Part shown: positions 31,617-52,080 of the stretch, piece by piece | Layout of the letters: every line of letters begins with the position of its first letter | Numbering within the stretch: position 1 is the stretch's first letter | DNA from: Flavihumibacter profundi | GTDB lineage: Bacteria; Bacteroidota; Bacteroidia; Chitinophagales; Chitinophagaceae | Length of the DNA stretch: 64,000 nucleotides | Reading direction: 5' to 3' | Assembly: GCF_020076305.1 (NCBI RefSeq) | Contig: NZ_JAIQXE010000002.1 | Location: 248,001-312,000 of the forward strand | Made by a program: the position numbers and the translations under genes | Notes under the pieces: generated by a model | Told to the model about the DNA's origin: nothing | Database searches by the model: none | Seen by the model: the letters and a program-made list of their open reading frames with translations, nothing else

Positions 31617-32044
31617 GCCAGTACACCGTGTTCGATGCGTGTGAGTTCATCTTTGAGAAGGCTGATGCCAAAGCTGGTATCCAAAAGGCTTTTTGGTACA
31701 ATACTACCGAGGGCCAGGTTGGTCGTTTCCAGCCAGCTGTCGAAGTTTTCCTTGTTCCCGAAAACGCCGGTACCATAATTATATAATCGGATGATTTCTA
31801 CAATGCGCTCGGAGCTTGCCGGGTCAAATGTTTTTTTTTCTTTCCTGATGCGCTGGATGGTTCTGTCTGAAAGATGCAGGTATTGCGACCATTCTGATAA
31901 ACTGAAAGGAATGCTATCCAGGAGTGAGTTAAATAAGGTGTAGGACAATCCATTCCTGACAGCGTCTATTAAACGGAAAATGCTTTTATCGTCTGAAAAA
32001 TTATAAGCAATTGCTGGTTCTTCCAGGTTTTTTGTCTTTGCCAT
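31613..32044 (-). CDS. Xre/MbcA/ParS-type antitoxin of RES module
   Basis: 143 residues. The middle holds an Xre-like helix-turn-helix (FSLSEWSQYLHLSDRTIQRIRKEKKTFDP). The C-terminus is the DUF2384/MbcA toxin-binding domain (SERIVEIIRLYNYGTGVFGN, then NLALGSIVPKSLLDTSFGISLLKDEL, quoted in part). It covers the NAD+ site of the RES toxin and represses the operon. A well-spaced GGGAG ribosome-binding site precedes its ATG, and an exact TAnnTTTG promoter element lies 16 nt upstream. Confidence 0.93.
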   Translation of the reverse strand: MAKTKNLEEPAIAYNFSDDKSIFRLIDAVRNGLSYTLFNSLLDSIPFSLSEWSQYLHLSDRTIQRIRKEKKTFDPASSERIVEIIRLYNYGTGVFGNKENFDSWLETTNLALGSIVPKSLLDTSFGISLLKDELTRIEHGVLA

Positions 32045-34434: not shown

Positions 34435-34908
34435 ATGGCCTCAATTACGCTCAATATTAACAACGCTTCCCATACAATTGATGTAGATCCCCAAATGCCA
34501 TTGTTATGGGCTATCCGTGATTTCGTTGGATTAAAAGGCACCAAGTACGGATGCGGTATGTCACAGTGCGGCGCATGTACTGTTTTGCTGGATGGCAATC
34601 CAATTCGTTCCTGCAGCTATCCCGTATCGGCGGCAGCAGGAAAAAAAATTGCCACTATTGAAGGCTTGTCCGAGAAAACAGACCATCCTGTACAGCAGGC
34701 CTGGATTGAATTGCAGGTACCACAATGCGGGTATTGCCAGTCAGGGCAAATCATGTCGGCCGTGGCCTTGCTGAAAAAAAACCCGTCGCCAACCGATGCG
34801 CAAATTGATGCGGCCATGCAGGGGAACCTTTGCCGCTGCGGCACCTATCCGCGCATCAAAACTGCGATCCATCGCGCAGCAGAAATACAAAAATCACAAA
34901 AAGCCTAA
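34435..34908 (+). CDS. (2Fe-2S) subunit of xanthine oxidase-family molybdenum hydroxylase (IorA-like)
   Basis: 157 residues. The N-terminal plant-type ferredoxin cluster is [17 protein letters not shown] plus SC in IRSCSYPV. The C-terminal helical cluster is [12 protein letters not shown] and [11 protein letters not shown]. This two-domain form equals the alpha subunit of isoquinoline 1-oxidoreductase and related aldehyde dehydrogenases. It passes electrons from the molybdenum site to an acceptor. It lies 10 nt before the large molybdopterin subunit gene. No separate FAD subunit is found, as is usual for this type. Confidence 0.92.
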
Positions 34909-34918
34909 AGACTAAACC

Positions 34919-37123: not shown

Positions 37124-37708
37124 ATGCAGGAAGATATATTAATTAAGATCAGCAATAAAATTAAGGAGAGCCGAAAGGTTAAGAAGATTACCGTCCAGCA
37201 ACTTGCAGACCAGTCAAATGTGAGCAAAGGCCTGATTTCACAGATTGAGAACAACCGTACCGTGCCCTCTTTGCCTGTGCTGATGAATATTATCGGCGCC
37301 CTCCATTTAGACCTTAAAGATTTTTTTAAGGACATCTCCCCGGGGGGTGAAAAGAAAAAGGTTTTTGTCATAAGGGCAAAAGACTACCAGCCATTCCAGA
37401 AAGAAACATCCCGCGGCTTTAACTATAAAAGGATTTTTACCCATTCCCTGAGTGGCGGACCGGTCGATATTATCCTGCTCACCCTCAAATCAGGGGCATC
37501 CCGGAATAAAGTTGTCCATACAGATGCCTACGAATATAAATATGTCATCACCGGAACAGTAGCCTACCTTATAGATGGCCAGGAATATATTTTGGAGGAA
37601 GGTGATTCCCTCTTCTTCGATGGCCGGCTTGGGCATAAACCCTCCAATATCGGGGAATCCGACGCCCAACTGCTGGTGATCTATTATTTTTCAACCCCAA
37701 GGGATTAA
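37124..37708 (+). CDS. Xre-cupin transcriptional regulator, likely regulator of the phosphonate locus
   Basis: The ATG at 37124 is chosen; the frame could extend to a TTG at 37109. About 194 residues. Residues ~1-65 are an Xre helix-turn-helix (TVQQLADQSNVSKGLISQIENNRTVPS). Residues ~115-190 are a cupin sensor (HTDAYEYKYVITGTVAYLIDGQEY, quoted in part; GDSLFFDGRLGHKP with the ligand His). MocR/PuuR-like Xre-cupin proteins sense small metabolites. It lies directly upstream of phnA in the same orientation, after a ~180-bp gap holding a promoter and an inverted repeat. A role in controlling AEP catabolism is inferred from this position. Confidence 0.85.
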   Translation: MQEDILIKISNKIKESRKVKKITVQQLADQSNVSKGLISQIENNRTVPSLPVLMNIIGALHLDLKDFFKDISPGGEKKKVFVIRAKDYQPFQKETSRGFNYKRIFTHSLSGGPVDIILLTLKSGASRNKVVHTDAYEYKYVITGTVAYLIDGQEYILEEGDSLFFDGRLGHKPSNIGESDAQLLVIYYFSTPRD

Positions 37709-37808
37709 TCCTGACCCTTTTAGCAAACCGGAAAGGTTAGTGTAACTTAACTTTTTACCACCGCCAGCAAAATATTCCAGCCCCAAATCCTGTTTTTTGG
37801 TAACAAAA

Positions 37809-37825
37809 GTTTAATGATACTAAAC
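37809..37825. promoter_or_regulatory. Operator-like inverted repeat in phnA promoter
   Basis: GTTTA-ATGATAC-TAAAC: 5-bp perfect arms, 7-nt spacer, placed where the -33 element would lie relative to the -7 element at 37844. It is a candidate site for the Xre-cupin regulator encoded just upstream. Confidence 0.4.
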
Positions 37826-37843
37826 ATGTATAAACTATATCTT

Positions 37844-37851
37844 TACTTTTG
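37844..37851 (+). promoter_or_regulatory. -7 promoter element of phnA-phnY-phnW operon
   Basis: TACTTTTG is an exact match to TAnnTTTG, 35 nt before the phnA ATG. The -33 TTTG is not seen at the usual distance and is replaced by an inverted repeat, which suggests regulated initiation. Confidence 0.6.
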
Positions 37852-37886
37852 TTGCGGTCTCTAATTCCCGGAATCAATATAACACC

Positions 37887-39131
37887 ATGAATATTTCAAC
37901 CCAATCTTTCGAAGCGAACGGTAAAAAATACCAGCCGGCTGCTAAACCTATTGTAGTGATTTGCATTGACGGATCAGCAGATGAGTATCTCGATTCTACT
38001 CTTTTGTACGACAGGATGCCTAACCTGAAAAGGATGGCGCGCCAGGGATATCGTGGTATGGTGCGTGGTGCTTTGCCCTCTTTTACCAATGTCAATAACT
38101 CATCCATTGTTACTGGTGTTGCCCCTGCCGTTCACGGTATCAGCGGTAACTTTTTTTATAACGAGGCCATCGACCAGGAAGTAATGATGAACTCGGCTGA
38201 GTACCTGCGTGCTGAAACAATACTGGCTGCTGCCGCCAACGCGGGAAGGAAACTGGCAGTTGTTACGGCAAAAGAAAAACTCAGGGATATCCTTTCTTTT
38301 AAAATGAAAGGTATCGCTATCTCTGCCGAGAAAGCCAACCAGGCCAAAGTGGAAACCCACGGCATTGACGACGTTGAAAATATTGTCGGTCACCCAACAC
38401 CGAAAATCTATAGCGCAGACGCAAGCTTATTTGTTTTGCGCGCCGGGGTTGCCTTTATTGAAAAAGGCCTTGCAGATTTCCTGTACCTCTCGCTTACAGA
38501 TTATATGCAACACACTTATTCCCCTGAAGCGGAAGAGTCTCTTGCCTTTTATGAAGCGATGGATGTGGAATTTGGCAAGCTCTTCCAACTCGGTGCAATT
38601 GTAGGCGCTACTGCCGATCATGGCATGAACGCTAAAGTTAAAGCTGATGGTTCCCCCAATGTATTATATGTTGAAGATATGCTGGAGCAGCAGTTCGGCG
38701 ATAAAGGCTTCCGGGTTATCTGCCCGATTACAGACCCTTACGTGAAACACCACGGTGCACTGGGTTCTTATGTTGTTGTGCATTTGAATGATAAATCAAT
38801 TATTCCAGATGTGAAAAACTGGTTGTCCTTACAACCAGGTATAACCGAAGTTTACGACCGCGCTACTGCAGTGCATGTGCTGGAACAACCCGCTGACCGT
38901 ATTGGTGACCTGGTTGTATTATCCGGCCGCGATGTTGTAGTTGGCCGCAGGCCGAAGTACCACGACCTTTCTGCCCTGGATGGTACCCTGCGTTCTCATG
39001 GCGGCAGGTACGAAGAAATGGTTCCCATGATCATTTCACATCCTTTAAATAATGCCTATAAAATGAAGGCAGCTGCGGATCCCAGGAATTTCGACATTTT
39101 CGATTTCACCATAAATGGAACGACTTTATGA
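37887..39131 (+). CDS. phnA: Phosphonoacetate hydrolase
   Basis: 414 residues, no signal peptide. It hydrolyses the C-P bond of phosphonoacetate to acetate and phosphate with two zinc ions. All seven residues expected for this alkaline phosphatase superfamily member can be placed: Asp28 in ICIDGSADEY, nucleophile Thr67 in LPSFTNVNNS, Asp205 and His209 in LTDYMQHTY, Asp244 and His245 in TADHGM, and His371 in RSHGGRYEEMVPM. The neighbours phnY and phnW supply its substrate, which settles the assignment against other phosphodiesterases. It is first in an operon; phnY overlaps its end by 4 nt. Confidence 0.95.
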   Translation: MNISTQSFEANGKKYQPAAKPIVVICIDGSADEYLDSTLLYDRMPNLKRMARQGYRGMVRGALPSFTNVNNSSIVTGVAPAVHGISGNFFYNEAIDQEVMMNSAEYLRAETILAAAANAGRKLAVVTAKEKLRDILSFKMKGIAISAEKANQAKVETHGIDDVENIVGHPTPKIYSADASLFVLRAGVAFIEKGLADFLYLSLTDYMQHTYSPEAEESLAFYEAMDVEFGKLFQLGAIVGATADHGMNAKVKADGSPNVLYVEDMLEQQFGDKGFRVICPITDPYVKHHGALGSYVVVHLNDKSIIPDVKNWLSLQPGITEVYDRATAVHVLEQPADRIGDLVVLSGRDVVVGRRPKYHDLSALDGTLRSHGGRYEEMVPMIISHPLNNAYKMKAAADPRNFDIFDFTINGTTL

Positions 39132-40591
39132 GCACCATACTAGCGCCAACAGTAACGCATGGCCGCAGCCAGGAAACCCTGGATATGCACTGCTATGTTG
39201 CAGGGACAAAAATAGTATCTGAGAAAAAACTCGAGGTGCGCAGTCCGTATGACCGTCGTGTGGTAGGCACCGTTCACCTTGCCAATGCATCGCATACCGA
39301 AGCAGCAATCCTCGCCGCGCTGAAAGGCGGAAAGAAACTTACCCGTTACGACCGTTACAGCATCCTGGAAAAAGCCAGGCATTTGCTGGTGGAACGCAAA
39401 GAAGAAATTGCCAAAATCATCAGTGCGGAATCCGGACTGGCGATCAGGGAAGCGATCTATGAAACCGGCCGCGCCCATGATGTGTTGTTGTTTGCAGGTA
39501 TAGAATCCTTAAAAGATGATGGCCAGATTTTTTCCTGTGATATCTCCCCATCAGGTAAAGCCCGAAAAATCTTTACCCTCCGCGAACCCTTATCCCTCGC
39601 GGTTTGCATTACCCCGTTCAACCATCCGCTGAACCAGGTACTGCATAAGATTGCACCTGCCATCGCTGTTGGTACCCCGGTTATTTTAAAGCCATCGGAA
39701 AAGACCCCGCTCACTGCTATCAAGATTGTTGAATTATTATACGAAGCAGGGTTACCGCATTATATGCTCAGTGTGTTACTGGGCCCTACCAATGAAATTG
39801 CCGAACCCCTTGTGAAAGACCCACGCGTGGATATCGTTTCTTTTACGGGTAGCGTTCCCGTGGGTAAGCATATCGCCTCTGCCGCAGGGTACAAAAAAGT
39901 TATCCTGGAACTGGGTGGTAATGACCCTGTCATCATTATGGAAGATGCCGACCTCGACCTCGCGGTTTACCTCGCAGCAGAAGGTTCTTTCCGCAATAGC
40001 GGCCAACGTTGTACTGCGGTTAAAAGGATCCTGGTGCACGAGAAAATCAAGGACGTTTTCATTGAAAAATTTGTTGCCAAAGCAAAGGAATATACCTGTG
40101 GGGATCCTGCTGATCCGGAAACAAGGGTGGGCACAGTCATCGATGAGGCCTCGGCTATTTACCTCGAGAGCGTGGTCAACAAAGCGGTTGCACAGGGTGC
40201 TAAAGTGATATTGGGTGGTAAAAGGACGGGCGCCCTCCTTGAACCTACAGTTATTGTAGATGTTCCCCGGGATGCTGATATGGTAGTGCATGAATCTTTT
40301 GGTCCGCTGGCACCTATAATTAGTTTCAGGGATATAGATGACGCAATTGCCTTAAGCAATAGTACAGCTTATGGTTTATCAAGTGGTATCGTGACTAACA
40401 ACATGGAATATGCGCTGCGCTTTGTGAAGGAACTGAAAGTGGGCACGGTAAACATCAACGAAGTGCCTGGTTACAGGATTGAATCTTCGCCTTTTGGTGG
40501 TATAAAAGATTCGGGCCTGGGTATCAAGGAAGGTGTGATCGAAGCAATGAAATGCTTCACATTTGTGAAGACATTCTCTATGCCCTGGTAA
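39128..40591 (+). CDS. phnY: Phosphonoacetaldehyde dehydrogenase
   Basis: 487 residues, aldehyde dehydrogenase superfamily. The general base Glu is in ILELGGNDPVII (residue ~261) and the nucleophile Cys in RNSGQRCTAVKR (residue ~295). FTGSVPVGKHIA is the NAD(P)-binding loop, and the C-terminal FGGIKDSGLGIKEGV closes the fold. It oxidises phosphonoacetaldehyde to phosphonoacetate with NAD+. General ALDH features do not fix the substrate; the assignment rests on its place between phnA (4-nt overlap) and phnW (32 nt gap). This is the dehydrogenase PhnY, not the 2-oxoglutarate dioxygenase also named PhnY. Confidence 0.93.
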   Translation: MSTILAPTVTHGRSQETLDMHCYVAGTKIVSEKKLEVRSPYDRRVVGTVHLANASHTEAAILAALKGGKKLTRYDRYSILEKARHLLVERKEEIAKIISAESGLAIREAIYETGRAHDVLLFAGIESLKDDGQIFSCDISPSGKARKIFTLREPLSLAVCITPFNHPLNQVLHKIAPAIAVGTPVILKPSEKTPLTAIKIVELLYEAGLPHYMLSVLLGPTNEIAEPLVKDPRVDIVSFTGSVPVGKHIASAAGYKKVILELGGNDPVIIMEDADLDLAVYLAAEGSFRNSGQRCTAVKRILVHEKIKDVFIEKFVAKAKEYTCGDPADPETRVGTVIDEASAIYLESVVNKAVAQGAKVILGGKRTGALLEPTVIVDVPRDADMVVHESFGPLAPIISFRDIDDAIALSNSTAYGLSSGIVTNNMEYALRFVKELKVGTVNINEVPGYRIESSPFGGIKDSGLGIKEGVIEAMKCFTFVKTFSMPW

Positions 40592-40623
40592 TTCGCTAAT
40601 TAATAAAAACAGTTTGCATTAAT

Positions 40624-41727
40624 ATGAAAAAATTATTGTTTACACCCGGCCCGCTCACTACTTCCAGGACAGTTAAAGAGGCTATGCTGGAAGACGTTGG
40701 TTCAAGGGATTATGTATTTGTAAATGCGGTTAAGGAAATCAGGAGTGAACTGTTGAGCCTTGGCCATGTTTCCCGCGAAAAAGGGTATGAAACTGTATTG
40801 GTACAGGGTTCAGGCACTTTTGGAATTGAAAGTGTGATCAGCAGTGCGATTGGCAAAAACGATGTTTTACTGGTCCTTGCAAATGGCGCTTATGGCGAAC
40901 GGATCGTTAAGATGGCCATCATCCACCAACTGCAGCACCAGGTGCTTCGATTTCCTGAAGCTGAAACTGTAACTGCGGCTGCCACTGAAGAATACCTGAA
41001 AAGCCATCCTGAAATTACGCATGTCGCCTGCATCCACAGTGAAACCACAACCGGGGTATTCAACCCGGTTGGCGCTATTGGCGATACCTGTAAGAAATAC
41101 AATAAAATATTTATTGTAGATGCTATGAGCAGCTTTGGCGGGGTTGAAATGGATATAGAAGCCCTGAAAATTGATTACCTGGTTTCTTCCTCTAATAAAT
41201 GTATTGAAGGTGTTCCCGGATTTGCTTTTGCGATCTGCAAAAGATCTGAACTGGAAAAATGCAAGGGCCAGGCAAGGAGCCTTAGCCTCGATTTGTATGA
41301 CCAGTGGGCCGGACTGGAAGCCAATGGCCAGTTCAGGTTTACACCCCCAACACTAAGTATCCTCGCGTTCAGGCAGGCCATGAAAGAATTAGCTGCTGAA
41401 GGTGGTATTCCTGCCCGTGAAAAAAGATACAAGACCAACAAACTGACACTGGATACCGGTATGGCGGAACTTGGTTTCAAACAATACCTGCAGCCTGAAA
41501 TCCAGGGCCATATCATCACTTCTTTTTTATACCCCGAAAGTCCGAAGTTTAATTTCGAAAGGTTTTACCAGAAACTTAATGACCGCGGGTTAATCATTTA
41601 CCCGGGTAAACTGGGCAAGACCGATGCCTTCCGTATTGGTAATATCGGTCAGATTTTTCCAGATGATGTGAAGCGCTTAATCCAGGCTATTAAAGAAGTC
41701 CTCGCCGAAGAAGGTATTGATATGTAG
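40624..41727 (+). CDS. phnW: 2-Aminoethylphosphonate-pyruvate transaminase
   Basis: 367 residues, fold-type I class V aminotransferase. It starts with the PhnW signature KKLLFTPGPLTTSRTVKEAM and SRDYVF. QGSGTFGIESV contacts the pyridoxal phosphate ring, IVDAMSSFGG supplies the Asp, and the Schiff-base Lys is in SSNKCIEGVPG (residue ~192). It converts AEP and pyruvate to phosphonoacetaldehyde and L-alanine. There is no phnX (phosphonatase) nearby; phnY and phnA downstream in the pathway show the three-step PhnW-PhnY-PhnA route. It is the last gene of the operon and is followed by a hairpin. Confidence 0.96.
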   Translation: MKKLLFTPGPLTTSRTVKEAMLEDVGSRDYVFVNAVKEIRSELLSLGHVSREKGYETVLVQGSGTFGIESVISSAIGKNDVLLVLANGAYGERIVKMAIIHQLQHQVLRFPEAETVTAAATEEYLKSHPEITHVACIHSETTTGVFNPVGAIGDTCKKYNKIFIVDAMSSFGGVEMDIEALKIDYLVSSSNKCIEGVPGFAFAICKRSELEKCKGQARSLSLDLYDQWAGLEANGQFRFTPPTLSILAFRQAMKELAAEGGIPAREKRYKTNKLTLDTGMAELGFKQYLQPEIQGHIITSFLYPESPKFNFERFYQKLNDRGLIIYPGKLGKTDAFRIGNIGQIFPDDVKRLIQAIKEVLAEEGIDM

Positions 41728-41758
41728 CCGCCGGAAAACTATATGTTACATGATTATT

Positions 41759-41793
41759 AAGATAGCCTGTTTTAGATTAAGACAGGCTATCTT
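41759..41793 (+). terminator. Hairpin between phnW and the second operon
   Basis: AAGATAGCCTG / CAGGCTATCTT: perfect 11-bp stem with a 13-nt loop, 31 nt after the phnW stop. Only a short T-rich tail (TAT) follows, so it is either a weak terminator or an RNA-stability or attenuation hairpin that separates the cytoplasmic enzymes from the exported ones. Confidence 0.65.
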
Positions 41794-41843
41794 TATGTGG
41801 TCCAAAAATTCCCTTAGTTGTATATAAAAAATCAATCACGACT

Positions 41844-44540
41844 GTGAAAAATTTACGCGTAACCTTCGCATTCTTCTTACTGGCACTTGCTGCCGCCGCC
41901 CAGCAAAAAAAAATGTTATCTGTACCTGGTATTAATCAATACAGTATAATTGATACAAAAGGTACAAGTGTGTTGCCAAGTGGCCGCTGGGTCCGCCCGG
42001 CTGGTAAAACCATTACCATTACCCATGACCCCTTTGGAATGGCAATTTCACCCGATGGCAAAAAAGCAGTTACCCTTCACAATGGTGTTTTTACCATTAT
42101 CAACCTGGCTAACCAAGAGGCAACAAGGGTGCCCAGTTATGATGGGAAAATTGTATCCCCCTTATCACATGGGTCTTACCTGGGTATTGCAATCGGCCCC
42201 GATTCGAAAACACTTTACCTGAGCGGTGGCGATAACGGTGCAGTGATTGTTTACGATATGGAAAAGATGCAACGCACCGATTCCATATCCCTCGACGGCA
42301 CATTTAAGGGAGTAAAATTTGAAGATAGTTTTACCGCAGACCTGCTGTTTAATGAAAAAACAAATGAGTTGCTGGTGCTCGACCGGGCTAATTACAGGAT
42401 GGTGCGTATTGACATGGCCACCCGTAAAATCAGGGCCTCCGTACCTACAGGACGCCTGCCATTTGGCATTGCCATGAGCCCCGACCAGAAATTTGCCTTG
42501 GTGGCGAATGTGGGGGCGTATGCCTATCCGCTGATCAAAGGGACTACACCGGAGAACTATGATTCCATCATGATCCCATGGCATCCATATGGTGACAATA
42601 CAAAGGAATCCCGTGAAGGCACTGTAGTTCAAGGAAGGCAAATACCAGGGCTTGGCAGCCCGAATGCCGCTGAAGCCATGAGTGTTTATGGTATTGACAT
42701 CCAGGCCAACAAAGTATTGTTCAGGCTGAAGACTGGTATGCAGATCGGCCAGATGGTGGAAGATGCTGAAGTTGTCGGCGGTGCCAGTCCGAATTCCATT
42801 GCCATTGGAAAGAAATATGCTTATGTTACCAATGCGACCAATGATAATATTGCCGTGATCGATTATCGGTTGCACAAGATTGTTACCCATATCCCCATAA
42901 AAGTGGATGCTCGCATTGACAAGTACCGCGGTTTACTGCCTTTTGGTATTACGCTGAGCAAGGATGAAAAGACCCTGTATGTTGCTTTACTTGGTTTTAA
43001 TGCAGTTGCTGTTATCGATGCGGAAAAAAGAACTACCAAAGGGTTGATCCCAACAGGATGGGGACCTGCACGTGTGCGCTTGTCAGCTGATGAAAAAGAA
43101 ATTTATGTGATCAGTTGCCGCGGCTATGGCGCAGGGCCAAATGGCGGGAAAAATTTTATTGACCCTGTACAGGGCACCTATATCGGCGATATCCAGCTGG
43201 CAACCTTCCAGCAAATACCAATGCCCGATGCCAAACAACTGGCTGTATATACCCGCCAGTCAAAGGAAAATACTTTCACAGAAAAGGTTGCAGAAAAATC
43301 ATCCAACCCATTACCGCCATTACCCGGCATGTATAAAAGCCCGATTAAACATATTGTATATATAACCAAGGAAAACAGGACCTATGATGAAGTGTTTGGC
43401 CAGCTGTCAATGGCTAAAGGCGATGCTACCCTTGCGCGTTACGGAGTTGGCGTAAATGTCTATGGTAAGACAGATACGGTATTGAATGCCGATATTATGC
43501 CCAACCACCATAAAATTGCCAGGGGCTTTGCTTTCAGCGATAATTTTTATTGCGACAGCGATGCATCCATCCACGGCCACCACTGGATGGTTGGGGTTAT
43601 CCCGAATGAATGGGTAGAGACTAATTCCAGCGTTAGTAAAACCGCAAAAGTATTTTCTTCGGCACCAGGCCGTCGTCACCCTGGAACCAGTGGCAGCATT
43701 GATCCCGAAGATTATGCAGAGATCGGTGGCTTATGGGAAGCGATGGAAAGATCCAAAGTTTCTTTTTACAATTTTGGTGAGGCTAATGAAACCGCCCATA
43801 ACCGGGAAGAATGGTATGATACCGCTACCGGTGGCGGTCATGCTGTAATGGTGCCCATGCAGAAAGCCCTTTGGAGCCGTACCAGCCATAACTATGCGGG
43901 CTTCAACACTGATATTCCCGACCAGTTCAGGATGGAGCAGTTTGAGACCGAGTTTACCAAAATGTGGCTGAAAGGAAAAGACACCATGCCTTCGCTTGTC
44001 ACCATACAGTTACCTGATGACCATGGGGCAGATATCCGTCCGGATGACGGCTACCCTTATGTTCATTCTTTCATGGCAGACAATGACCTGGCACTGGGTC
44101 GTATCCTGCATTTCTTATCGCGCACCCCTTATTGGAAAAGCACCCTGGTTATCGTTACAGAAGATGATCCCCAGGGCGGTGTTGACCATATTGATGCCCA
44201 CCGCAGTGTTTGTTTGATGGCAGGTCCGTATGTGAAGCATGGTTATGTTTCCAACCAGCATGCCAATTTCGGCTCCCTCTTAAAAGTGATCTATAATATC
44301 CTGGGGGTTCATTATGTGAACCAGTATGATGTAACAGCCAGCTTAATGCAGGATTTCTTTACTGACAAACCTGATTTTAGCACTTACGAGCTCGTCTTCC
44401 CCGATAAAAGGGTATTTGATCCTGCAAAAGCCATGTCCAAATACAACAGGGGCATTGATTGGAGAAAAATACAAAAGGGACCTGAAATGGACAACGAAGA
44501 TGAGCTTCGTAAAAATCACTATAAATCAAAAAGCAACTAA
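41844..44540 (+). CDS. Exported YncE-like beta-propeller / phosphoesterase fusion 1 of phosphonate locus
   Basis: 898 residues from a GTG start (no nearby ATG) with a signal peptide (VKNLRVTFAFFLLALAAAAQ). Residues ~60-450 form a beta-propeller with repeats such as TNATNDNIAVIDYRLHKIV and VALLGFNAVAVIDAEK. The catalytic domain (residues ~500-870) has ITKENRTYDEVFGQL, LPDDHGADIRPDDG, ADNDLALGRIL and TEDDPQGGVDHIDAHRSV. These are the metal-binding motifs of the alkaline phosphatase/phospholipase C-like superfamily. HGHHWMVG and HNREEWYD are extra. It probably hydrolyses a phosphate or phosphonate ester outside the cytoplasm. The next gene starts 2 nt after its stop. Confidence 0.85.
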   Translation: MKNLRVTFAFFLLALAAAAQQKKMLSVPGINQYSIIDTKGTSVLPSGRWVRPAGKTITITHDPFGMAISPDGKKAVTLHNGVFTIINLANQEATRVPSYDGKIVSPLSHGSYLGIAIGPDSKTLYLSGGDNGAVIVYDMEKMQRTDSISLDGTFKGVKFEDSFTADLLFNEKTNELLVLDRANYRMVRIDMATRKIRASVPTGRLPFGIAMSPDQKFALVANVGAYAYPLIKGTTPENYDSIMIPWHPYGDNTKESREGTVVQGRQIPGLGSPNAAEAMSVYGIDIQANKVLFRLKTGMQIGQMVEDAEVVGGASPNSIAIGKKYAYVTNATNDNIAVIDYRLHKIVTHIPIKVDARIDKYRGLLPFGITLSKDEKTLYVALLGFNAVAVIDAEKRTTKGLIPTGWGPARVRLSADEKEIYVISCRGYGAGPNGGKNFIDPVQGTYIGDIQLATFQQIPMPDAKQLAVYTRQSKENTFTEKVAEKSSNPLPPLPGMYKSPIKHIVYITKENRTYDEVFGQLSMAKGDATLARYGVGVNVYGKTDTVLNADIMPNHHKIARGFAFSDNFYCDSDASIHGHHWMVGVIPNEWVETNSSVSKTAKVFSSAPGRRHPGTSGSIDPEDYAEIGGLWEAMERSKVSFYNFGEANETAHNREEWYDTATGGGHAVMVPMQKALWSRTSHNYAGFNTDIPDQFRMEQFETEFTKMWLKGKDTMPSLVTIQLPDDHGADIRPDDGYPYVHSFMADNDLALGRILHFLSRTPYWKSTLVIVTEDDPQGGVDHIDAHRSVCLMAGPYVKHGYVSNQHANFGSLLKVIYNILGVHYVNQYDVTASLMQDFFTDKPDFSTYELVFPDKRVFDPAKAMSKYNRGIDWRKIQKGPEMDNEDELRKNHYKSKSN

Positions 44541-44542
44541 TT

Positions 44543-46984
44543 ATGCGGAAATACTTATTGAGCCTCGCAGGCTACCTGCTGATTAATTCCGCAGGTGCCT
44601 TTGCGCAGGTTTCGGCTTCTGCTGCAAAACCCGGCCATGACCGTGTACGATTGCCCAACGGCTGGCACCTTTCTCCTGCAGGCCGATCGCTTCCCCTGGG
44701 TGACCTTCCGCTCAACCTGGTATTAAGCGCCTCCGGAAAATATATGGCGGCAACGAATAACGGACAAAGCGTGCAAAGCATACAACTAATTGATCCCGTG
44801 AATGAACGTTTGCTGGATAAAGTAGTAATCCCGAAAAGCTGGTACGGACTATGTTTCAGCGCTGATGAAAAATCATTGTATGCCAGCGGCGGCAATGATA
44901 ATATTATCTGGCAGTATGCTATCAGCAACAATAAACTGGTAAAGACGGACAGTATCATATTGGGTGAAAAATGGCCGGTAAAAATTTCCCCTGCTGGTAT
45001 TTCGCTGCATCCGAAGAGAAATGAAATGTATGTGGTCACCAAAGAGAATAACCAGTTCTATTGCATTGACCTCAGGACAAAAAAAATCATAAAGTCCATT
45101 ACGTTGGGCGGCGAAGGTTATGCATGCCTGTTATCCCCTGACCAGAAATCAGTTTTTATTTCTGTTTGGGGTGGCGCACAGGTTTGGCAATACAACGTAG
45201 AACTGCAAAGGATTACCCGGAAAATTCCTGTGAGCAAAAACCCGAATGAACTTTTACTTACCAGCAACGGCAAATTCCTTTTTTCTGCGAATGGTGATGA
45301 CAATAGTGTTTCTGTCATCGACGTACAGCAGGGAAGGGTGATTGAAGTGTTGAATACTGCTTTATATCCGGATGCACCAACCGGTTCAGCAAGTAACGGA
45401 CTGGCACTTTCAGCTAATGGAAAGACGCTGTATGTTGCTAACGCCGACAATAACTGTCTCGCAGTTTTTGATGTAACCAAACCCGGCGCCTCACATTCCC
45501 TTGGTTTTATACCAACCGGATGGTATCCGACTAACGTGAAAGTGAAAGGATCAAAAATCTTTGTGAGTAATGGTAAAGGGTTCACTTCTTTTGCCAATCC
45601 ACGCGGACCCAATCCCGCAGTGAAAAAAGAGAAAGTAAAATACCAGGAAGGTGATGAAGAAAATGCATCAGGTGTCCAATACATCGGGGGACTTATGAAA
45701 GGGACCCTTAGTATAATTGATGTCCCTAATGCAACGCAACTTGCTCAATATTCCAGGGCAGTTTACCAAAATACGCCCTATACGAAAAAAGGCGAACTGG
45801 AATCACCGGGTGAAACCGGGAACCCGGTTCCCATGAAAGTTGGCGATCCTTCCCCGATTAAATATGTGTTTTATATTATCAAGGAAAACCGTACTTACGA
45901 CCAGGTGCTGGGTGATATACCAGAAGGTAATGGAGATACCAGCCTGGTTTTGTTCGGCGAGAAAATCACCCCCAACCTTCACAAGCTTGCGAAGGAGTTC
46001 GTATTACTCGATAATTTCTATGTTGATGGTGAAGTAAGTGCCGATGGGCATAACTGGAGCCTCTCTGCTAACGCGAATGACTACCTGGAAAAAAACTGGC
46101 CGACTTCTTATGGTGGCCGCGGCGGCTCTTATGATGCTGAAGGTAACCGCGAAATCGCCAATCCGGGTAAAGGCTTTATCTGGGATTACTGCAAAAGAGC
46201 CGGGGTAACCTATCGCACCTACGGTGAGTTTGCCGATGATTACCAACCCAATATTCCCGTTCTGAAAAATCATTTATGCCCCTATTATACCAGCTGGGAC
46301 CAATCGGTTCGTGATACCACACGCTATAACCAGTGGGCCCGGGAATTTGATTCCATGGTGCTGGTTAATGCCGTACCGCAATTCAATTCATTACGTATCA
46401 TAAATGACCATACCGAAGGACTGTCGCTGGGCAGGCCAACACCATTCGCCCATTGTGCTGATAACGACTGGGCTGTAGGGCTCTTTGTAGAGCATTTGTC
46501 AAAAAGCCCCATATGGAACGAGTCGGTGGTGTTTGTAGTGGAAGATGATGCCCAGAACGGGCCGGACCATGTTGATGCACACAGGAGTACTACGTATGTG
46601 GCAGGGGGTTATGTAAAGCGGCATTTTGTAGACCATACCATGTATTCCACTTCCTCATTGCTCCGCACTATCGAACTTATCCTTGGACTACCACCAATGA
46701 GCCAGTACGATGCGGCTGCAGAGCCAATGTGGCGTTGTTTTGCCCACCAGCCGAATCCATCTGGTTTTGCTTCTGTACTGCCAAAGATTGACATCACCGA
46801 AAAGAATACAGCGACGACCCAAAGTGCCAGGATAAGCGCGGGTTTTGATTTCTCTAAGGAAGACCGGGTTCCGGACTTGTTATTCAGTGAAGTAATCTGG
46901 AAAGCAGTTAAAGGTGAGAACAGTGTAATGCCTGCACCACGCCGCAGTGCTTTCCTGCAGGTTAAAGAAGAAGCAGAAAAATGA
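44543..46984 (+). CDS. Exported YncE-like beta-propeller / phosphoesterase fusion 2 of phosphonate locus
   Basis: 813 residues with a signal peptide (MRKYLLSLAGYLLINSAGAFAQ). The architecture matches the preceding gene and the protein at 2.1 kb: propeller at ~40-350 (FSANGDDNSVSVIDVQ, VANADNNCLAVFDV), then the phosphoesterase with IIKENRTYDQVLGDIPEGNGD, SADGHNWSL, INDHTEGLSLGRPT and VEDDAQNGPDHVDAHRS. By eye its catalytic part is closer to the 2.1-kb protein than to its direct neighbour, so the pair is not a recent tandem copy. Two non-identical enzymes may act on different ester linkages. It overlaps the TonB receptor gene by 4 nt. Confidence 0.85.
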   Translation: MRKYLLSLAGYLLINSAGAFAQVSASAAKPGHDRVRLPNGWHLSPAGRSLPLGDLPLNLVLSASGKYMAATNNGQSVQSIQLIDPVNERLLDKVVIPKSWYGLCFSADEKSLYASGGNDNIIWQYAISNNKLVKTDSIILGEKWPVKISPAGISLHPKRNEMYVVTKENNQFYCIDLRTKKIIKSITLGGEGYACLLSPDQKSVFISVWGGAQVWQYNVELQRITRKIPVSKNPNELLLTSNGKFLFSANGDDNSVSVIDVQQGRVIEVLNTALYPDAPTGSASNGLALSANGKTLYVANADNNCLAVFDVTKPGASHSLGFIPTGWYPTNVKVKGSKIFVSNGKGFTSFANPRGPNPAVKKEKVKYQEGDEENASGVQYIGGLMKGTLSIIDVPNATQLAQYSRAVYQNTPYTKKGELESPGETGNPVPMKVGDPSPIKYVFYIIKENRTYDQVLGDIPEGNGDTSLVLFGEKITPNLHKLAKEFVLLDNFYVDGEVSADGHNWSLSANANDYLEKNWPTSYGGRGGSYDAEGNREIANPGKGFIWDYCKRAGVTYRTYGEFADDYQPNIPVLKNHLCPYYTSWDQSVRDTTRYNQWAREFDSMVLVNAVPQFNSLRIINDHTEGLSLGRPTPFAHCADNDWAVGLFVEHLSKSPIWNESVVFVVEDDAQNGPDHVDAHRSTTYVAGGYVKRHFVDHTMYSTSSLLRTIELILGLPPMSQYDAAAEPMWRCFAHQPNPSGFASVLPKIDITEKNTATTQSARISAGFDFSKEDRVPDLLFSEVIWKAVKGENSVMPAPRRSAFLQVKEEAEK

Positions 46985-49005
46985 GGAAAACAGTTATCCC
47001 TTTTTTATTCGCATTTTCGGCGGTACCGGCTTTCGCACAGCAAGACACTATAGCTTTAGAACTGGAAGAGGTGGTGGTGACATCACTACGGAAAAAACAG
47101 TCCCTGCTGAAAACACCATACCAGGTTGAAAGAGTCTCGGGTCGCTACATCAGTACCTACCAGCCAAGAACTACCCCGGAGGTGCTTGTCGGATTAAATG
47201 GCGTATTTGTCCAAAAGACAAACCATGGCGGGGGGTCGCCTTTCGTACGCGGACTGACCGGCAACCAGTTACTGGTGCTGGTTGATGGGATCAGGCTGAA
47301 TAATTCCACTTTTCGCTATGGGCCCAACCAATACCTGAATACTATTGATGCTTTTAGCGTTGACCACATTGAAGTGGCGAAAGGAACCGGGTCGGTTCAG
47401 TATGGATCAGATGCACTTGGCGGCGTGATACAGGTGTTTACAAAGGAACCTGTTTTTTCGGCTACAGCTCCGCGCTGGAAAGCAAGTGCAACAGGAAAAT
47501 GGATGAGCGGGGGAATGGAACAGACCGGAAGGGCTGAAATGTCCTATAGCGCAGGGAAAATGGCAGCGCAGGTTGGACTGAGCTGCCGCAATTTCGGGGA
47601 TATTATTGGTGGTGATACAACAGGCAAACAAACCCCGACCGCCTACGATGAAATGGCCTGGGACGCCAGGCTGAAATTTGGCCTATCCGAAAATACAACC
47701 CTCACCATTGCACACCAGTTCCTGCAACAAAACCATGTTCCGGTTTATCATAAAGTAGTGCTTGAAAATTATCGCATAAATGAAACCAACCCGCAACAAA
47801 GGTTATTGAATTATGCCAGGCTCAACATCAATGGCAAGCAGTCCTTCGCAAAACAGTTATGCATAACCGCTTCCTGGCAGCAAACCATTGAAGGCCGGGA
47901 AAGCAGCAGGAATAACAGCCCGGTAACCAGGAAGGAATGGGATGAAGTGAATACTGTTGGCTTAACTGCTGACCTGTATAGCGAGCTTGCAAAAAACTGG
48001 ACCGCAAATTCGGGTATTGAATTATATTATGATGGTGTTACCAGTAAAAGGCAGGATATCAATGAAACGACCGGAACTGTAAAAGAATTAAGGGGCCTGT
48101 ATCCAACAGGATCCAAGTATGGTAACTATTCAATCTATACCTTACACCATTTATCCTGGAAACGGTTCTCTGCCGAATTAGGAGGAAGGTTTAACCTGTT
48201 CAACATCAAACTAAATGATACAAGCCTGGGTGTGGTTACCCTTCATCCCAGTACCCTGGTAGGTAATGCTTCGGTTATGTATCACCTTAACGACAGGCAC
48301 AAGGTTTTCGTTTCCTTGAGTAACGGGTTCCGGGCACCCAATATTGATGATATGGGCACACTGGGAATCGTTGATTTCCGCTATGAAGTACCCACAAATG
48401 ACCTTCGCCCAGAAAAATCACTGAATACCGAACTGGGTTACAAATTCATAGCAGGGAAACTGGAGGGAACTGCAAGCGTATTTAATTTGCAGCTTAAAGA
48501 CCTGATCACCAGGGTCAGGGTAGGTACTGATTCCATAAATGGCTACCCAGTTTACCAGAAAGAAAATACCGAGCGGGCGGAAATCAATGGGGTCGAAGCA
48601 TCACTTAAATATTCTCCGTTGTCTTATTTTTGGGTTTCGGCAAATTTTGCCTGGCAGCAGGGTACCAATAAAACAAAAGGTGAGCCTATCCGGCGGATTC
48701 CCCCGGTTTACGGACGCTTGATGGCCGGTTATACCAAAAACAAATGGCACGCAGCCGCTGAATGGCTATTGGCAGGAAAACAGGACCGCCTGGCACAGGG
48801 CGATATGGAGGATAACCGCATTCCAAAAGGCGGCACGCCGGGTTGGAATGTTGTAAACCTTTATGGTGGATACAGCTGGTCATTTGCGGACCTGAACCTT
48901 GGGCTCCAGAATTTGCTGGATGAAGATTATCGTACCCACGGGTCGGGGATTAACGGCGTTGGCCGCAGCCTCTGGATATCCCTTAAAATAAAAATAAACC
49001 AGTAA
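46981..49005 (+). CDS. TonB-dependent receptor of phosphonate locus
   Basis: 674 residues with a signal peptide (MRKTVIPFLFAFSAVPAFAQ). A TonB-box-like stretch (LELEEVVVTSLRKKQS) leads to the plug (VERVSGRYISTYQPRTTPEVL, quoted in part; GSPFVRGLTGNQLLVLVDGIRLNN; GSVQYGSDALGGVIQV). The C-terminal barrel ends in GRSLWISLKIKINQ. It has no N-terminal carboxypeptidase-like domain and no SusD partner, so it resembles BtuB/FecA-type receptors for small ligands. It is translationally coupled to the phosphoesterase gene before it (ATGA) and to the PhnZ-like gene 3 nt after it. Import of a phosphonate-containing compound is inferred. Confidence 0.88.
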   Translation: MRKTVIPFLFAFSAVPAFAQQDTIALELEEVVVTSLRKKQSLLKTPYQVERVSGRYISTYQPRTTPEVLVGLNGVFVQKTNHGGGSPFVRGLTGNQLLVLVDGIRLNNSTFRYGPNQYLNTIDAFSVDHIEVAKGTGSVQYGSDALGGVIQVFTKEPVFSATAPRWKASATGKWMSGGMEQTGRAEMSYSAGKMAAQVGLSCRNFGDIIGGDTTGKQTPTAYDEMAWDARLKFGLSENTTLTIAHQFLQQNHVPVYHKVVLENYRINETNPQQRLLNYARLNINGKQSFAKQLCITASWQQTIEGRESSRNNSPVTRKEWDEVNTVGLTADLYSELAKNWTANSGIELYYDGVTSKRQDINETTGTVKELRGLYPTGSKYGNYSIYTLHHLSWKRFSAELGGRFNLFNIKLNDTSLGVVTLHPSTLVGNASVMYHLNDRHKVFVSLSNGFRAPNIDDMGTLGIVDFRYEVPTNDLRPEKSLNTELGYKFIAGKLEGTASVFNLQLKDLITRVRVGTDSINGYPVYQKENTERAEINGVEASLKYSPLSYFWVSANFAWQQGTNKTKGEPIRRIPPVYGRLMAGYTKNKWHAAAEWLLAGKQDRLAQGDMEDNRIPKGGTPGWNVVNLYGGYSWSFADLNLGLQNLLDEDYRTHGSGINGVGRSLWISLKIKINQ

Positions 49006-49008
49006 ATA

Positions 49009-49602
49009 ATGGCATCCCCGCAAATCATTAGTTACGAGATATTCTCCCTGTTTGAGCAATATGGCGCAGACGAATATGCCGGTGAAAAAGTATCACAACT
49101 GGAACATATGTACCAGGCCGCGGAACTGGCTGCCAGTGAAGGGTATGATGATGAAGTTATCCTGGCTGCCTTCCTGCACGATATTGGTCATTTGCTACCC
49201 ATCGATAATAAGGAAGACACCATGGTTGGCAACGATGGACTGCATTATGGCATGATGGAGCATGAGAAAGTCGGGGCTGGATGGTTGCGTTCATTGGGGC
49301 TTGGCGACAGGATGTGTAAGCTCATTGCCTCCCATGTTAATGCGAAAAGGTACCTGACCTTTAAAGACCCCGGGTACTACGGACAATTGTCAGAAGCAAG
49401 CAAGCGCACCCTCGAATTCCAGGGGGGCAGGATGTCGGAAGTGGAAGCCATGGCCTTTGAGCAAGACCCCTTATTCGAATTGTACATCAGGATGCGGCGC
49501 TGGGATGAAGCAGCCAAGATAGAAGGTATGCCAGTAGCCGGATTGGATGAATTAAAAACTAAACTGAACAATTACCTCGAAAAAAGTTTAGCTGATAATT
49601 AA
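49009..49602 (+). CDS. PhnZ-like HD-domain diiron oxygenase (phosphonate-associated)
   Basis: 197 residues, cytoplasmic. PhnZ oxidatively cleaves (R)-1-hydroxy-2-aminoethylphosphonate to glycine and phosphate using a mixed-valent diiron centre. The expected ligands occur with matching spacing: His33, His57-Asp58 (FLHDIGH), His85 (MMEHEKVG), His109 (ASHVNAKRY) and Asp166 (RRWDEA). The lid pair Tyr23-x-x-Glu26 (EYAGEK) distinguishes PhnZ from ordinary HD phosphohydrolases. It is the last gene of the exported-enzyme operon, 3 nt after the TonB receptor. No 2-oxoglutarate hydroxylase partner is in the window, so the hydroxylated substrate may come from outside or from a distant gene. Confidence 0.88.
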   Translation: MASPQIISYEIFSLFEQYGADEYAGEKVSQLEHMYQAAELAASEGYDDEVILAAFLHDIGHLLPIDNKEDTMVGNDGLHYGMMEHEKVGAGWLRSLGLGDRMCKLIASHVNAKRYLTFKDPGYYGQLSEASKRTLEFQGGRMSEVEAMAFEQDPLFELYIRMRRWDEAAKIEGMPVAGLDELKTKLNNYLEKSLADN

Positions 49603-49630
49603 GTTAGTGTACCCGTAATCAGACCGCTAC

Positions 49631-50788
49631 TCAGGCAAAAATTTTATGGATATTGGCTTCCGCGAGTCCGGCACTAACGGTCATTCCCTTGCCGCCGATG
49701 GCAGTAATTATCCAGGTGTTGGTATCGGCCGTTTCCATAAATATGTCGTGTTCTTTCCGCTGGGCATAGTATCCATTCCATTGCGTAGTGATATTCCAGT
49801 GCGGCAGGTCAAAAATCCGTTGTGCTTCCTGGAGTATGATATCGTTGATAACCTGCTTCACATCGAAACCAAGCCGGTCGGCATTCCTTGCGTCTTCGTA
49901 TTCATGTGAATCACCAATGATCAGGCTACCGTCTGCTGCCTGTTTAAATAGCACATGGATCCCCCATTTTTTACACTGTTCATTGATGGTGGCTGCATTG
50001 AGCTTTTCATAGGATGGGCATTCCTGGAAACTTTCATACCGCCGTATGCTCAACCCGCCAAGCACTGCACCAGGTAAAACAAAATCTGTCATGGGTGAGG
50101 TACGCATCATTTGCAATTTGGTGACCACTATATCGCTTTTTGCAAACAATTCAGGATACAATGAAGTAAAGTCGCGCCCATTGCAGATAAGCACCTTGTC
50201 TGCTGTGAATTCTCTGCCATCGCTGGTTTCCACGAAGCAGCGGTCATTCCGGTAGACTACAGACTTAACAAGGGAATAAGGCCGGTAAATGAGTCCGAGC
50301 TGTTCCTGCATGAATGCAATCAGCCGGTGGATCATACGGTCTGGCTCAACCGTAATTTCTTCCGGGAAAAATAATCCGCCCATGCAATAGGAAGCCCTTA
50401 GACCCGGATACTTTTCCAGGCAGGATTCCTTTCCCGTTATAACAGAAGGGTAACCCATCTTTTTGTTGATTGCGGAAAGTTCTTCCAGCAAGGTCAGTTC
50501 GGTAGCATCTGATGCGATGTACATTGAGCCGTTTTTCCGGACAGACAGGTCAAATTCAGACTGGATGTCCTTATAAATTTCGAGGCTCCGTACTCCGTAA
50601 TCGGACCATTTCCCCTGGTTAAGTCCCGAAGGGATCGCCATACCAAAGTTTCGTACAGTGGCATCTGTAGGCTGGCTGTCCTTTTCCAGTAACAATACTT
50701 TTAATCCTTTCCTGGCAGCATGGTAGGCATGAAAACTCCCTAACACACCTGCGCCGGTAATGATACAATCATAGTGTTTGCTATTCAT
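49631..50788 (-). CDS. FAD-dependent oxidoreductase, phosphonate-associated TIGR03364/PbfD type
   Basis: 385 residues, D-amino acid oxidase-like fold. The dinucleotide-binding motif is CIITGAGVLGSFHAYHAARKG. Family-specific features are DATVRNFGMAIPSG, VTKLQMMRTSPM and LIIGDSHEYED, which match the phosphonate-operon-associated FAD oxidoreductase (TIGR03364, proposed HpnW; related to PbfD, reported to oxidise N-methyl-AEP/AEP to phosphonoacetaldehyde). The C-terminal IITAIGGKGMTVSAGLAE closes the FAD site. It overlaps the DUF5690 permease gene by 4 nt and converges on the PhnZ-like gene. It would feed methylated AEP into PhnY-PhnA. Confidence 0.85.
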   Translation of the reverse strand: MNSKHYDCIITGAGVLGSFHAYHAARKGLKVLLLEKDSQPTDATVRNFGMAIPSGLNQGKWSDYGVRSLEIYKDIQSEFDLSVRKNGSMYIASDATELTLLEELSAINKKMGYPSVITGKESCLEKYPGLRASYCMGGLFFPEEITVEPDRMIHRLIAFMQEQLGLIYRPYSLVKSVVYRNDRCFVETSDGREFTADKVLICNGRDFTSLYPELFAKSDIVVTKLQMMRTSPMTDFVLPGAVLGGLSIRRYESFQECPSYEKLNAATINEQCKKWGIHVLFKQAADGSLIIGDSHEYEDARNADRLGFDVKQVINDIILQEAQRIFDLPHWNITTQWNGYYAQRKEHDIFMETADTNTWIITAIGGKGMTVSAGLAEANIHKIFA

Positions 50789-52080
50789 AAACCTATCTGG
50801 ATGGTTTGTACTTGTTGGTATTTCCTTTTAAAATAAATCCAGCTGAACCCTACCGCACCCAATCCGATCACCGCGAAAATTCCGCTGACATAAATGAAAT
50901 ATGGTAGCCAGTCGGTATGGAAATTAAGTAATTCCTTATTCAGGATAAGCACGCAGCTGCCCAGGTAACCGATGGAATCCATGAGGTAAAAGAAGAACCC
51001 GATATTGCCGTTCACCTTATAGGCAGCAATAAACCGCTCTAAAAAAAGGCACTGGAGGGTATTGTAGCTGACATATAAGCCGATGGTATAGGTGACCAGC
51101 AAGGCAATGGCATCGCCGGTTTTCAGGTAGAGGCATATAGCACAGATTCCTATGGCTAAAAACCCGCCACTAATAACCAGGTGGTGCCTTTTAATACTTT
51201 TAAAATGGCTGGATAGTCCTGATACCGTGAGCAGCAAGACAAATACGATCATCGCGGCGAGGGTTTCCATCCTGGTAAAGATTGCCGGAGAGGCGTCAGG
51301 CCTTATTTTTCGGATTATTTCAACGGCATAGTTGTCTTTTATATCGCGCAATATGGTCAGCAAAAGGTTGATGAGGATAATAGCCACCAGTCCGGGCAGG
51401 AATTTTTTTACCAGGGCCTTCCTTCCCAGGGCATCAAGGGCTTCCCGCTTTCCTCTTTGGGTAGTTTCTTCCGGGCTTGGTGGCGGGATGCGACCCAGGG
51501 AATATACCGACAGGAAAAGAAGGGGCAGGAATAGGCATCCGGCCACAAAGGGCATATAAATTTCCGGGATACCCCAGGATTCAATGCAGGTACGCCCAAT
51601 ACTCTTAGCAACTCCCGAACTGAAAATGAAATTGATGCTCAGGATGAGGGCGATAAAATCGGTATACCTGCGGCCTTCTATAAAGCTGAAAACCAGTCCC
51701 CATATAAGTCCCAGGCACATGCCATTAGTATAAAGGAAGACCAGGTTCCAGGGCTTCGGAACCAGTGCCAGTAAAAGCAGGCTAAGGTGGGCGCCCCCGA
51801 TTAGGGTTAAGATATACCGCCCCCTTTTTGCGGGATTGAGCTCTGCAATGAATTTGATCCCTATAAACTTAGCTGTCATATAGCCCAGGACCTGCGCGAT
51901 GACCAGGGCCGATTTGAAGGAAATCCCAAGGGTGGTTATGCCATCAAATGTAGTGGCACTAATGGTTTTGCGAAAACCATACATGCAGAAATAGGTCGAA
52001 AATGAGGCAAAAGAGGCCAGGGCAATATTGGATAGCTGCGTCCGGCTGACTTTCCCGGTAAGTGTTGACAAACTAATCAT
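50785..52080 (-). CDS. DUF5690/MFS-like permease, candidate phosphonate transporter
   Basis: 431 residues with about twelve hydrophobic helices, MFS-like (FCMYGFRKTISATTF in helix 1 is the typical DUF5690 beginning; GLIWGLVFSFIEGRRYTD lies near helix 4-5). A charged cytoplasmic loop (PPSPEETTQRGKREALDAL) divides two halves. It is an inner-membrane transporter of unknown substrate. It is translationally coupled to the PbfD-like gene (ATGA overlap) and faces the phosphonate operons, and no PhnSTUV/PhnCDE ABC system is present. It is therefore the best candidate for moving AEP or N-methyl-AEP into the cytoplasm (inference). Confidence 0.8.
   Translation of the reverse strand: MISLSTLTGKVSRTQLSNIALASFASFSTYFCMYGFRKTISATTFDGITTLGISFKSALVIAQVLGYMTAKFIGIKFIAELNPAKRGRYILTLIGGAHLSLLLLALVPKPWNLVFLYTNGMCLGLIWGLVFSFIEGRRYTDFIALILSINFIFSSGVAKSIGRTCIESWGIPEIYMPFVAGCLFLPLLFLSVYSLGRIPPPSPEETTQRGKREALDALGRKALVKKFLPGLVAIILINLLLTILRDIKDNYAVEIIRKIRPDASPAIFTRMETLAAMIVFVLLLTVSGLSSHFKSIKRHHLVISGGFLAIGICAICLYLKTGDAIALLVTYTIGLYVSYNTLQCLFLERFIAAYKVNGNIGFFFYLMDSIGYLGSCVLILNKELLNFHTDWLPYFIYVSGIFAVIGLGAVGFSWIYFKRKYQQVQTIQIGL

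Follow-up and report, generated by a model that had tools for sequence, protein, structure and literature searches.

A putative aminophosphonate utilisation locus that includes envelope genes in Flavihumibacter profundi, a same-site variant of a SusC/SusD-type locus

2-Aminoethylphosphonate (AEP), methyl-AEP and hydroxy-AEP are common lipid and glycan head groups in protists and invertebrates, and the described bacterial pathways begin with the free phosphonate. Could one bacterial locus release the phosphonate from such esters, import it and break it down? The question is raised by positions 37124 to 52080 of a 64,000-nucleotide (nt) stretch of the Flavihumibacter profundi genome (contig NZ_JAIQXE010000002.1, positions 248,001 to 312,000), hereafter the window, in which genes for aminophosphonate catabolism adjoin those for two exported phosphoesterases (PP1 and PP2), a TonB-dependent receptor (TBDR) and a DUF5690 membrane protein. 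We lean, by a modest degree, towards a locus for aminophosphonate use that brings its own envelope apparatus and offers a route from ester to phosphate. The gene identities, gene order, signal-like starts, predicted major facilitator superfamily (MFS) fold and conserved linkage on which this reading rests are sequence-based. The ten genes listed in a first-pass annotation of this DNA were all found in place by open reading frame (ORF) coordinates and family models, and a second genome of the genus, G008, also carries the locus.

In the proposed route, PP1 and PP2, situated in the periplasm or at the cell surface, would cleave phosphonate esters (phosphonolipid head groups or AEP-decorated glycans) to free AEP, N-methyl-AEP or 1-hydroxy-AEP. 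The TBDR would carry the ester or the freed compound through the outer membrane, and DUF5690 would move the free aminophosphonate through the inner membrane; these cargoes, and the lipid or glycan source, we infer. In the cytoplasm, PhnW (from AEP) and PbfD (from N-methyl-AEP) would form phosphonoacetaldehyde, which PhnY and then PhnA would convert to acetate and phosphate, and PhnZ would turn pre-hydroxylated AEP into glycine and phosphate.

The cytoplasmic enzymes include the complete PhnW-PhnY-PhnA pathway for AEP that the first-pass annotation had recognised; all three lie in one plus-strand cluster and exceed curated cut-offs. PhnA, a phosphonoacetate hydrolase (37887-39131), scores 498 bits with TIGR02335 (cut-off 408) and matches PDB entry 1ei6 at E 3e-112. 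Its ORF overlaps by 4 nt that of PhnY, the phosphonoacetaldehyde dehydrogenase (39128-40591; TIGR03250, 670 bits, cut-off 636), and PhnW, the 2-aminoethylphosphonate-pyruvate transaminase (40624-41727), follows with 481 bits for TIGR02326 (cut-off 401) and 493 bits, also over cut-off, for NF010006. On the minus strand, a flavin adenine dinucleotide (FAD) oxidase of PbfD type (49631-50788) scores 392 bits with TIGR03364 (cut-off 285.1) and stands in a phosphonate gene context. PbfD enzymes convert N-methyl-AEP to phosphonoacetaldehyde, as proven for other members in the available text of PMC10590968, and the window enzyme is expected to be an N-methyl-AEP oxidase with the same product. The reactions of PhnW, PhnY, PhnA, PhnZ and PbfD are known for their families, and together the five could permit the use of AEP, N-methyl-AEP and 1-hydroxy-AEP.

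The PhnZ-like diiron HD oxygenase (plus strand, 49009-49602) is kin to PhnZ of PDB entry 4mlm (E 2e-36), and eight residues (Y23, E26, H33, H57, D58, H85, H109 and D166) show no variation across an alignment of 29 sequences that includes the window's; we take these columns to correspond to the iron and substrate residues of PhnZ. The first-pass identification of the gene is upheld by this kinship and these residues but not by the family model, since its TIGR03276 score of 203.8 bits falls below the cut-off of 214.6; the relative in L042 also falls short, at 212.3 bits. We also note a PhnZ-like gene in L069 (9707-10282) without any of the usual partners.

Other phosphonate systems were looked for in the genome. 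No PhnX-like gene is recognised in the locus, and a PhnX-like sink for phosphonoacetaldehyde was rejected, as no protein of the genome passes the cut-off (best match 41 bits against 219); the test is weak, a clear PhnX-like relative in L040 scoring only 163 bits. PhnJ and phosphoenolpyruvate (PEP) mutase likewise have no match in the genome, nor does a PhnD-type binding protein, AepX-type ABC importers not having been searched for. The same models matched in 12 (PhnD-type), 1 (PhnJ), 6 (PEP mutase) and 13 (PhnX-like) of 14 control genomes, all matches of the last two being below cut-off. Biosynthesis rather than catabolism was set aside, there being no PEP mutase match and PhnA being a hydrolase. 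Horizontal transfer of phnAYW was considered and dropped: L062 and L064 have PhnA and PhnY proteins of 80-84% identity, but identity is 86% for a housekeeping protein, the ribonucleotide reductase R2 subunit (RNR R2), in G064, so that transfer is not required.

The envelope genes form a tight plus-strand row whose spacing agrees with that reported in the first-pass annotation. PP1 (41844-44540) and PP2 (44543-46984), separated by 2 nt, each combine beta-propeller repeats with a PF04185 phosphoesterase domain (40 and 47 bits, respectively; cut-off 23) and share the motifs ENRTYD, NDH and EDD...DHVDAHR. PP2 overlaps by 4 nt the TBDR (46981-49005), which has a PF00593 barrel and a PF07715 plug, and a 3-nt gap separates the TBDR from phnZ. 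By eye, PP1, PP2 and the TBDR have signal-like N-termini and PhnA has none. Phosphonate-ester cleavage by PP1 and PP2 is a putative activity. The TBDR is not of SusC type: no SusC family is among the NCBIfam matches shown for it, and no SusD was found among the ten locus genes scanned, so that the locus falls outside the SusCD type of polysaccharide utilisation locus (PUL) or phosphate utilisation system (PUS). Upstream of phnA lies an XRE-cupin transcription regulator (plus strand, 37109 with a TTG start or 37124 with ATG, to 37708; HTH_3 and Cupin_2 domains).

Does this neighbourhood recur? Lack of conservation in other genomes had been named beforehand as the outcome that would speak against the locus, and conserved neighbourhoods are found. 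Within the family, 44 of 147 genomes hold a PhnZ-like gene at E 1e-3, with strong matches in 38; omission of our own genome, G025 and G095 from the latter gave 35 PhnZ neighbourhoods of at most 20 kb. Gene calling followed a simple longest-ORF rule, under which the PhnZ genes of L051 and L058 were missed; L051, which has SusC, SusD and an NPP-type enzyme, was excluded, leaving 34 loci for scoring. The profiles for SusC, SusD and other parts were built from the family loci themselves, and several loci are contig ends. The common order is XRE-cupin regulator, SusC, SusD, NPP-type phosphodiesterase, PhnZ, PhnX-like HAD, DUF5690 and PbfD. SusC and SusD occur together in 29 of the 34 loci, DUF5690 in 33, PbfD in 31 and PhnX-like genes in 25; a phosphoesterase of exported type, assigned by family except for the 14 relatives and five window proteins whose N-termini were viewed, is present in 31. 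The phosphoesterase of L083, as called, has no plain signal sequence. The XRE-cupin regulator family is found in 15 of the 35 family neighbourhoods, and in L062 and L064 SusC-SusD-PhnZ is joined directly to PhnA-PhnY-PhnW and DUF5690. A scan of the phylum detected PhnZ in 17 of 395 genomes (11 newly fetched, together with our own, G008, G029, G035, G070 and G087); 15 of these, all 11 new ones included, hold both SusC and SusD, neither of which is present in the window or L072.

The exported genes of the window recur in part of this set. Genes of the PP1 subfamily (60-75% identity to PP1) are present in 12 of the 147 family genomes, our own included. L047 has, in one direction, the row SusD-PP1-NPP-PP2-TBDR-PhnZ-PhnX-like-DUF5690-PbfD, its receptor being 57% identical to that of the window and standing beside PP2 and PhnZ. 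The PP2-TBDR pair is seen again in L186 and L191, and both genes are also present in L193. A Ferruginibacter locus, L114 (3-11311), is much like the window, with a propeller-phosphoesterase, a 727-aa TonB receptor, PhnA, PhnY, PhnW, an FAD oxidase and two DUF5690 genes. In family genomes, 10 propeller-phosphoesterase genes were counted at no more than 10 kb from PhnZ, against 0.24 expected, some of the places being pieces of one gene.

A second survey was anchored on DUF5690 and took the best 80 of at least 571 relatives, in named loci; these span Chitinophagaceae, Sphingobacteriaceae, Flavobacteriaceae, Fulvivirgaceae and others, and 31 of them have the XRE-cupin regulator. Both SusC and SusD occur in 35 of the 45 loci with a phosphonate gene versus 5 of the 35 without (Fisher p 2e-8), and exported-type phosphoesterases in 30 of 45 versus 3 of 35 (p 8e-8). 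On a DUF5690 tree (47 phosphonate rows, 27 other, 7 uncounted), the phosphonate label changes 3 times against a shuffled mean of 22, a contrast that near-copies help; long branches occur, and the placement of the window clade is unsure. We also note a record titled Stenotrophomonas sp. SY1 (L128) with a PhnX-like gene and DUF5690, for which transfer or contamination is possible. That the neighbourhood is a chance gathering of unrelated genes is highly improbable. SusC/SusD pairs are common in such genomes, the SusD-like_2 model having 13 matching places in G000, not all of them separate genes, and this favours chance; chance is contradicted by the 35 of 45 versus 5 of 35 and by the count of propeller-phosphoesterases near PhnZ, which with our own genome excluded is still 8 against 0.22 expected (P 1e-10). 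Enzyme families and conserved linkage support, as first proposed, a locus dedicated to aminophosphonate catabolism that stands beside envelope genes and is comparable to a PUL.

Close relatives reveal how the window differs from the common form. L039, L076 and L079 share both flanks with it (XDH-like protein 74% and RNR R2 ~90% identical) and have at that site the regulator, SusC, SusD, PhnZ, PbfD and DUF5690. Between regulator and PhnZ, the window has PhnA-PhnY-PhnW-PP1-PP2-TBDR where these loci have SusC-SusD. Judged from sequence, the window locus is a variant, at the same site, of a SusC/SusD-type locus that is widespread. The outer-membrane import slot expected from the PUL analogy is held in relatives, usually by a true SusC/SusD pair, but not by such a pair in the window itself. 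The molybdopterin oxidase pair directly upstream of the XRE-cupin regulator (34435-37090) is kept in L039, L076 and L079 and may be linked to the locus.

DUF5690 (minus strand, 50785-52080; PF18943, 423 bits, cut-off 25), whose ORF overlaps that of PbfD by 4 nt, is predicted with confidence by AlphaFold2 (pLDDT 93.5) to adopt the MFS fold. The best PDB fold match by both methods is human G6PT (9w1r; Z 34.3, root-mean-square deviation (rmsd) 3.1 over 365 residues), an organophosphate antiporter (OPA). GlpT (1pw4) gives Z 28.5 and rmsd 4.6 over 402 residues, many non-OPA MFS chains ranking between the two. The DUF5690 profile has no match among PDB sequences. An hhalign comparison with the E. 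coli proteins GlpT, UhpT and UhpC gives a weak match (E 0.0017, probability 15%; E 0.29 for one other MFS protein of the window); it places the invariant residues R37, K71 and R245 on GlpT R45, K80 and R269, which we take to be the anion-binding residues. AepP provides a precedent: in the available text of PMC8316502 it is a GlpT-like MFS permease for AEP that keeps the phosphate-binding residues and is genetically required for growth on AEP as nitrogen source. Because of the MFS fold and this precedent, we propose, from model and analogy, that DUF5690 is an inner-membrane aminophosphonate permease.

The position held by PP1 and PP2 is an interchangeable slot. By genus it is filled by PF01663 NPP proteins, propeller-PF04185 proteins, PF01663 proteins with PA14, GDPD, metallophosphatases, PhoD or phospholipase C, where phospholipase C, GDPD and others were first identified in one or two scanned proteins and then assigned in other loci by BLAST against these. 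NPP and PF04185 proteins have the alkaline-phosphatase-type fold in common; GDPD and metallophosphatases are different. Phospholipase C occupies the slot in nine named loci, and that of L110 has a Tat-like start and aligns with phospholipases C of known structure at E 4e-138; the NPP protein of one relative has no match in the PDB. Since enzymes of like activity replace one another in the slot, ester cleavage is suggested to be the selected step. This is the best argument for cleavage, and does not imply that the ester is a phosphonate ester.

Several observations weigh against the proposed route. PF04185 scores of PP1 and PP2 are weak, and the structure model of PP2 is poor (pLDDT 67), with a catalytic domain that could not be placed and two fold searches filled by beta-propellers. 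The nearest named subfamily of the TBDR is the heme/hemoglobin family TIGR01785 (224 bits, below the cut-off of 317). For DUF5690, non-OPA MFS proteins stand close behind G6PT (NorA at Z 32.6, a D-galactonate symporter at 32.5), and 35 of the 80 loci lack any recognised phosphonate gene within the stretch examined. As to PhnZ, no PF05721 or PF02668 place, and so no candidate for the 2-oxoglutarate hydroxylase partner of the PhnY*/PhnZ or TmpA/TmpB oxidative route, lies within 10 kb of it in 30 PhnZ genomes including the window's. PF05721 genes away from PhnZ are present in 28 of the 30, with four such matches in the window genome. With no hydroxylase near PhnZ, 1-hydroxy-AEP would therefore need to come ready-made or from an unlinked enzyme. 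Outside the 30-genome set, L090 (Pedobacter cryoconitis, 7057-11290) has two adjacent ORFs with similar starts, one of which was scanned and is a TauD/GBBH-type dioxygenase, followed by PhnZ and DUF5690; the arrangement resembles the TmpA/TmpB pathway with DUF5690 as transporter.

The remaining adverse points concern the exported genes and bring in another explanation, namely that PP1, PP2 and the TBDR form a general organic-phosphorus module handling ordinary phosphodiesters under phosphate starvation and adjoin the phosphonate genes as fellow suppliers of phosphorus. We think this unlikely, though it has a real claim to attention. In 7 of the 12 family genomes PP1-type genes are not near any recognised phosphonate gene, and L186 and L191 have PP1, PP2 and the TBDR without PhnZ; because of this the exported module may act on ordinary phosphate esters. 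A terminator-like plus-strand hairpin (41759-41793, from the RNA fold of 41745-41830; -25 kcal/mol, z -5.0, none of 200 shuffles equally low), with only a short U-run downstream, parts PP1 from phnAYW, and given this hairpin phnAYW and PP1-PP2-TBDR-phnZ are probably separate transcripts. Scans for sigma-70 promoters and terminators gave matches no commoner than in shuffles, the terminator scan missing this hairpin, probably through its T-run rule, and a Bacteroidota promoter pattern was uninformative (0 matches, 3.4 expected). The same explanation is favoured by a PhoB/PhoR-like two-component pair near 7 of the 35 family loci, by further phosphorus-ester genes within the window and by the congener loci without phosphoesterases. 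It is opposed by phnZ, which ends the same tight operon at a 3-nt gap, by the association of hydrolase, SusCD and PhnZ in several families, and by the PhnD-type importer missing from the genome.

The slot is not always filled, and this bears on whether esters are the substrate at all. No recognised phosphoesterase is present in 3 of the 34 family loci, 3 of 11 further ones and 15 of the 45 named phosphonate loci. Five loci from congeners or Flavihumibacter records (L039 and L076-L079), all with SusC-SusD, likewise have none and are included among those counted. These counts are also adverse to the ester route, and they would suit a TBDR or SusCD that captures free or metal-bound AEP, the exported phosphoesterases being incidental; so would four of the five SusC-SusD loci without a phosphonate gene, which are Chitinophaga loci of the form SusC-SusD-DUF5690 with no recognised catabolic gene. 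We regard free aminophosphonates as an improbable sole substrate, since the slot repeatedly holds phosphoesterases, from several families, and small phosphonates in free form should not depend on a TonB system. More tentatively than for the window itself, and a little short of an even call, the ester route can be extended across Bacteroidota, as phosphonate utilisation loci in which interchangeable exported esterases would release aminophosphonates from phosphonolipids or phosphonoglycans, import would fall to SusCD or a small TonB receptor, and DUF5690, until now unassigned, would be a family of inner-membrane aminophosphonate permeases, the outer-membrane module having been swapped at one site in close relatives.

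How much of this is already known? The earlier view that import in known clusters relies solely on ABC or PhnE-type systems does not stand: AepP is an MFS permease (PMC8316502, available text), and PusCD clusters had already been noted in Flavobacterium (PMC8115612). PMC8115612 introduced PusCD, and one sentence of its available text states that PusCD clusters in Flavobacterium include phosphonate-degrading enzymes. The PUS/PusCD systems are similar to the loci considered here in pairing SusCD-like importers with phosphoesterases for organic phosphorus. They differ in that the main text of PMC8115612 has no word beginning with Phn and its available text gives neither DUF5690 nor a conserved gene order; the window, moreover, has a small TBDR in place of SusCD. 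PMC8812569 restates the PusCD idea, in its available text without phosphonate genes. The PhnW-PhnY-PhnA clusters for AEP with AepXVW, AepSTU or AepP (PMC8316502, available text) have the same cytoplasmic pathway as the window; unlike it, their account leaves TonB and the outer membrane unmentioned in the main text. According to the available text of PMC12366243, phnY-phnA pairs also occur in Bacteroidetes. AEP clusters containing PbfD (TIGR03364), which acts on N-methyl-AEP and lies beside phnX or phnWX (PMC10590968, available text), are similar as well, in contrast to which the main text describing them contains neither Bacteroid nor TonB. Relatives of the window resemble PULs in that a single locus combines a local regulator, SusC/SusD, an exported hydrolase and catabolic genes; where PULs have carbohydrate enzymes, these loci have phosphoesterases and C-P bond enzymes, and the window has no SusC/SusD.

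No published description of the SusCD-esterase-PhnZ-PbfD-DUF5690 unit, nor the name DUF5690, was found in literature searches that covered subscription journals only in part. As far as these searches reach, the kind of locus is known in outline, and the defined unit, the role of DUF5690 and the swapped module are new. A conserved unit of esterase, importer, permease and catabolism would supply the missing first step before the free phosphonate, assign DUF5690 a function and give environmental markers of phosphonate-ester turnover. The pairings in several Bacteroidota families may mean that phosphonates are harvested from lipids or glycans, not as free molecules alone.

Elsewhere in the window, a third propeller-PF04185 phosphoesterase (2102-4729) is followed by an 811-aa ORF without a Pfam match (4900-7335), and contig C3 carries a fourth copy (L074). 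A second cluster of phosphoester type (24841-31149) comprises a TonB receptor with OMP_b-brl_3, a GDPD, a 758-aa ORF matching neither Pfam nor NCBIfam and a histidine phosphatase. Between the two phosphorus clusters is situated a RES/Xre (ParT/ParS) toxin-antitoxin pair (31155-32044), and at 18478-22299 a sulfatase precedes a 694-aa ORF without a Pfam match.

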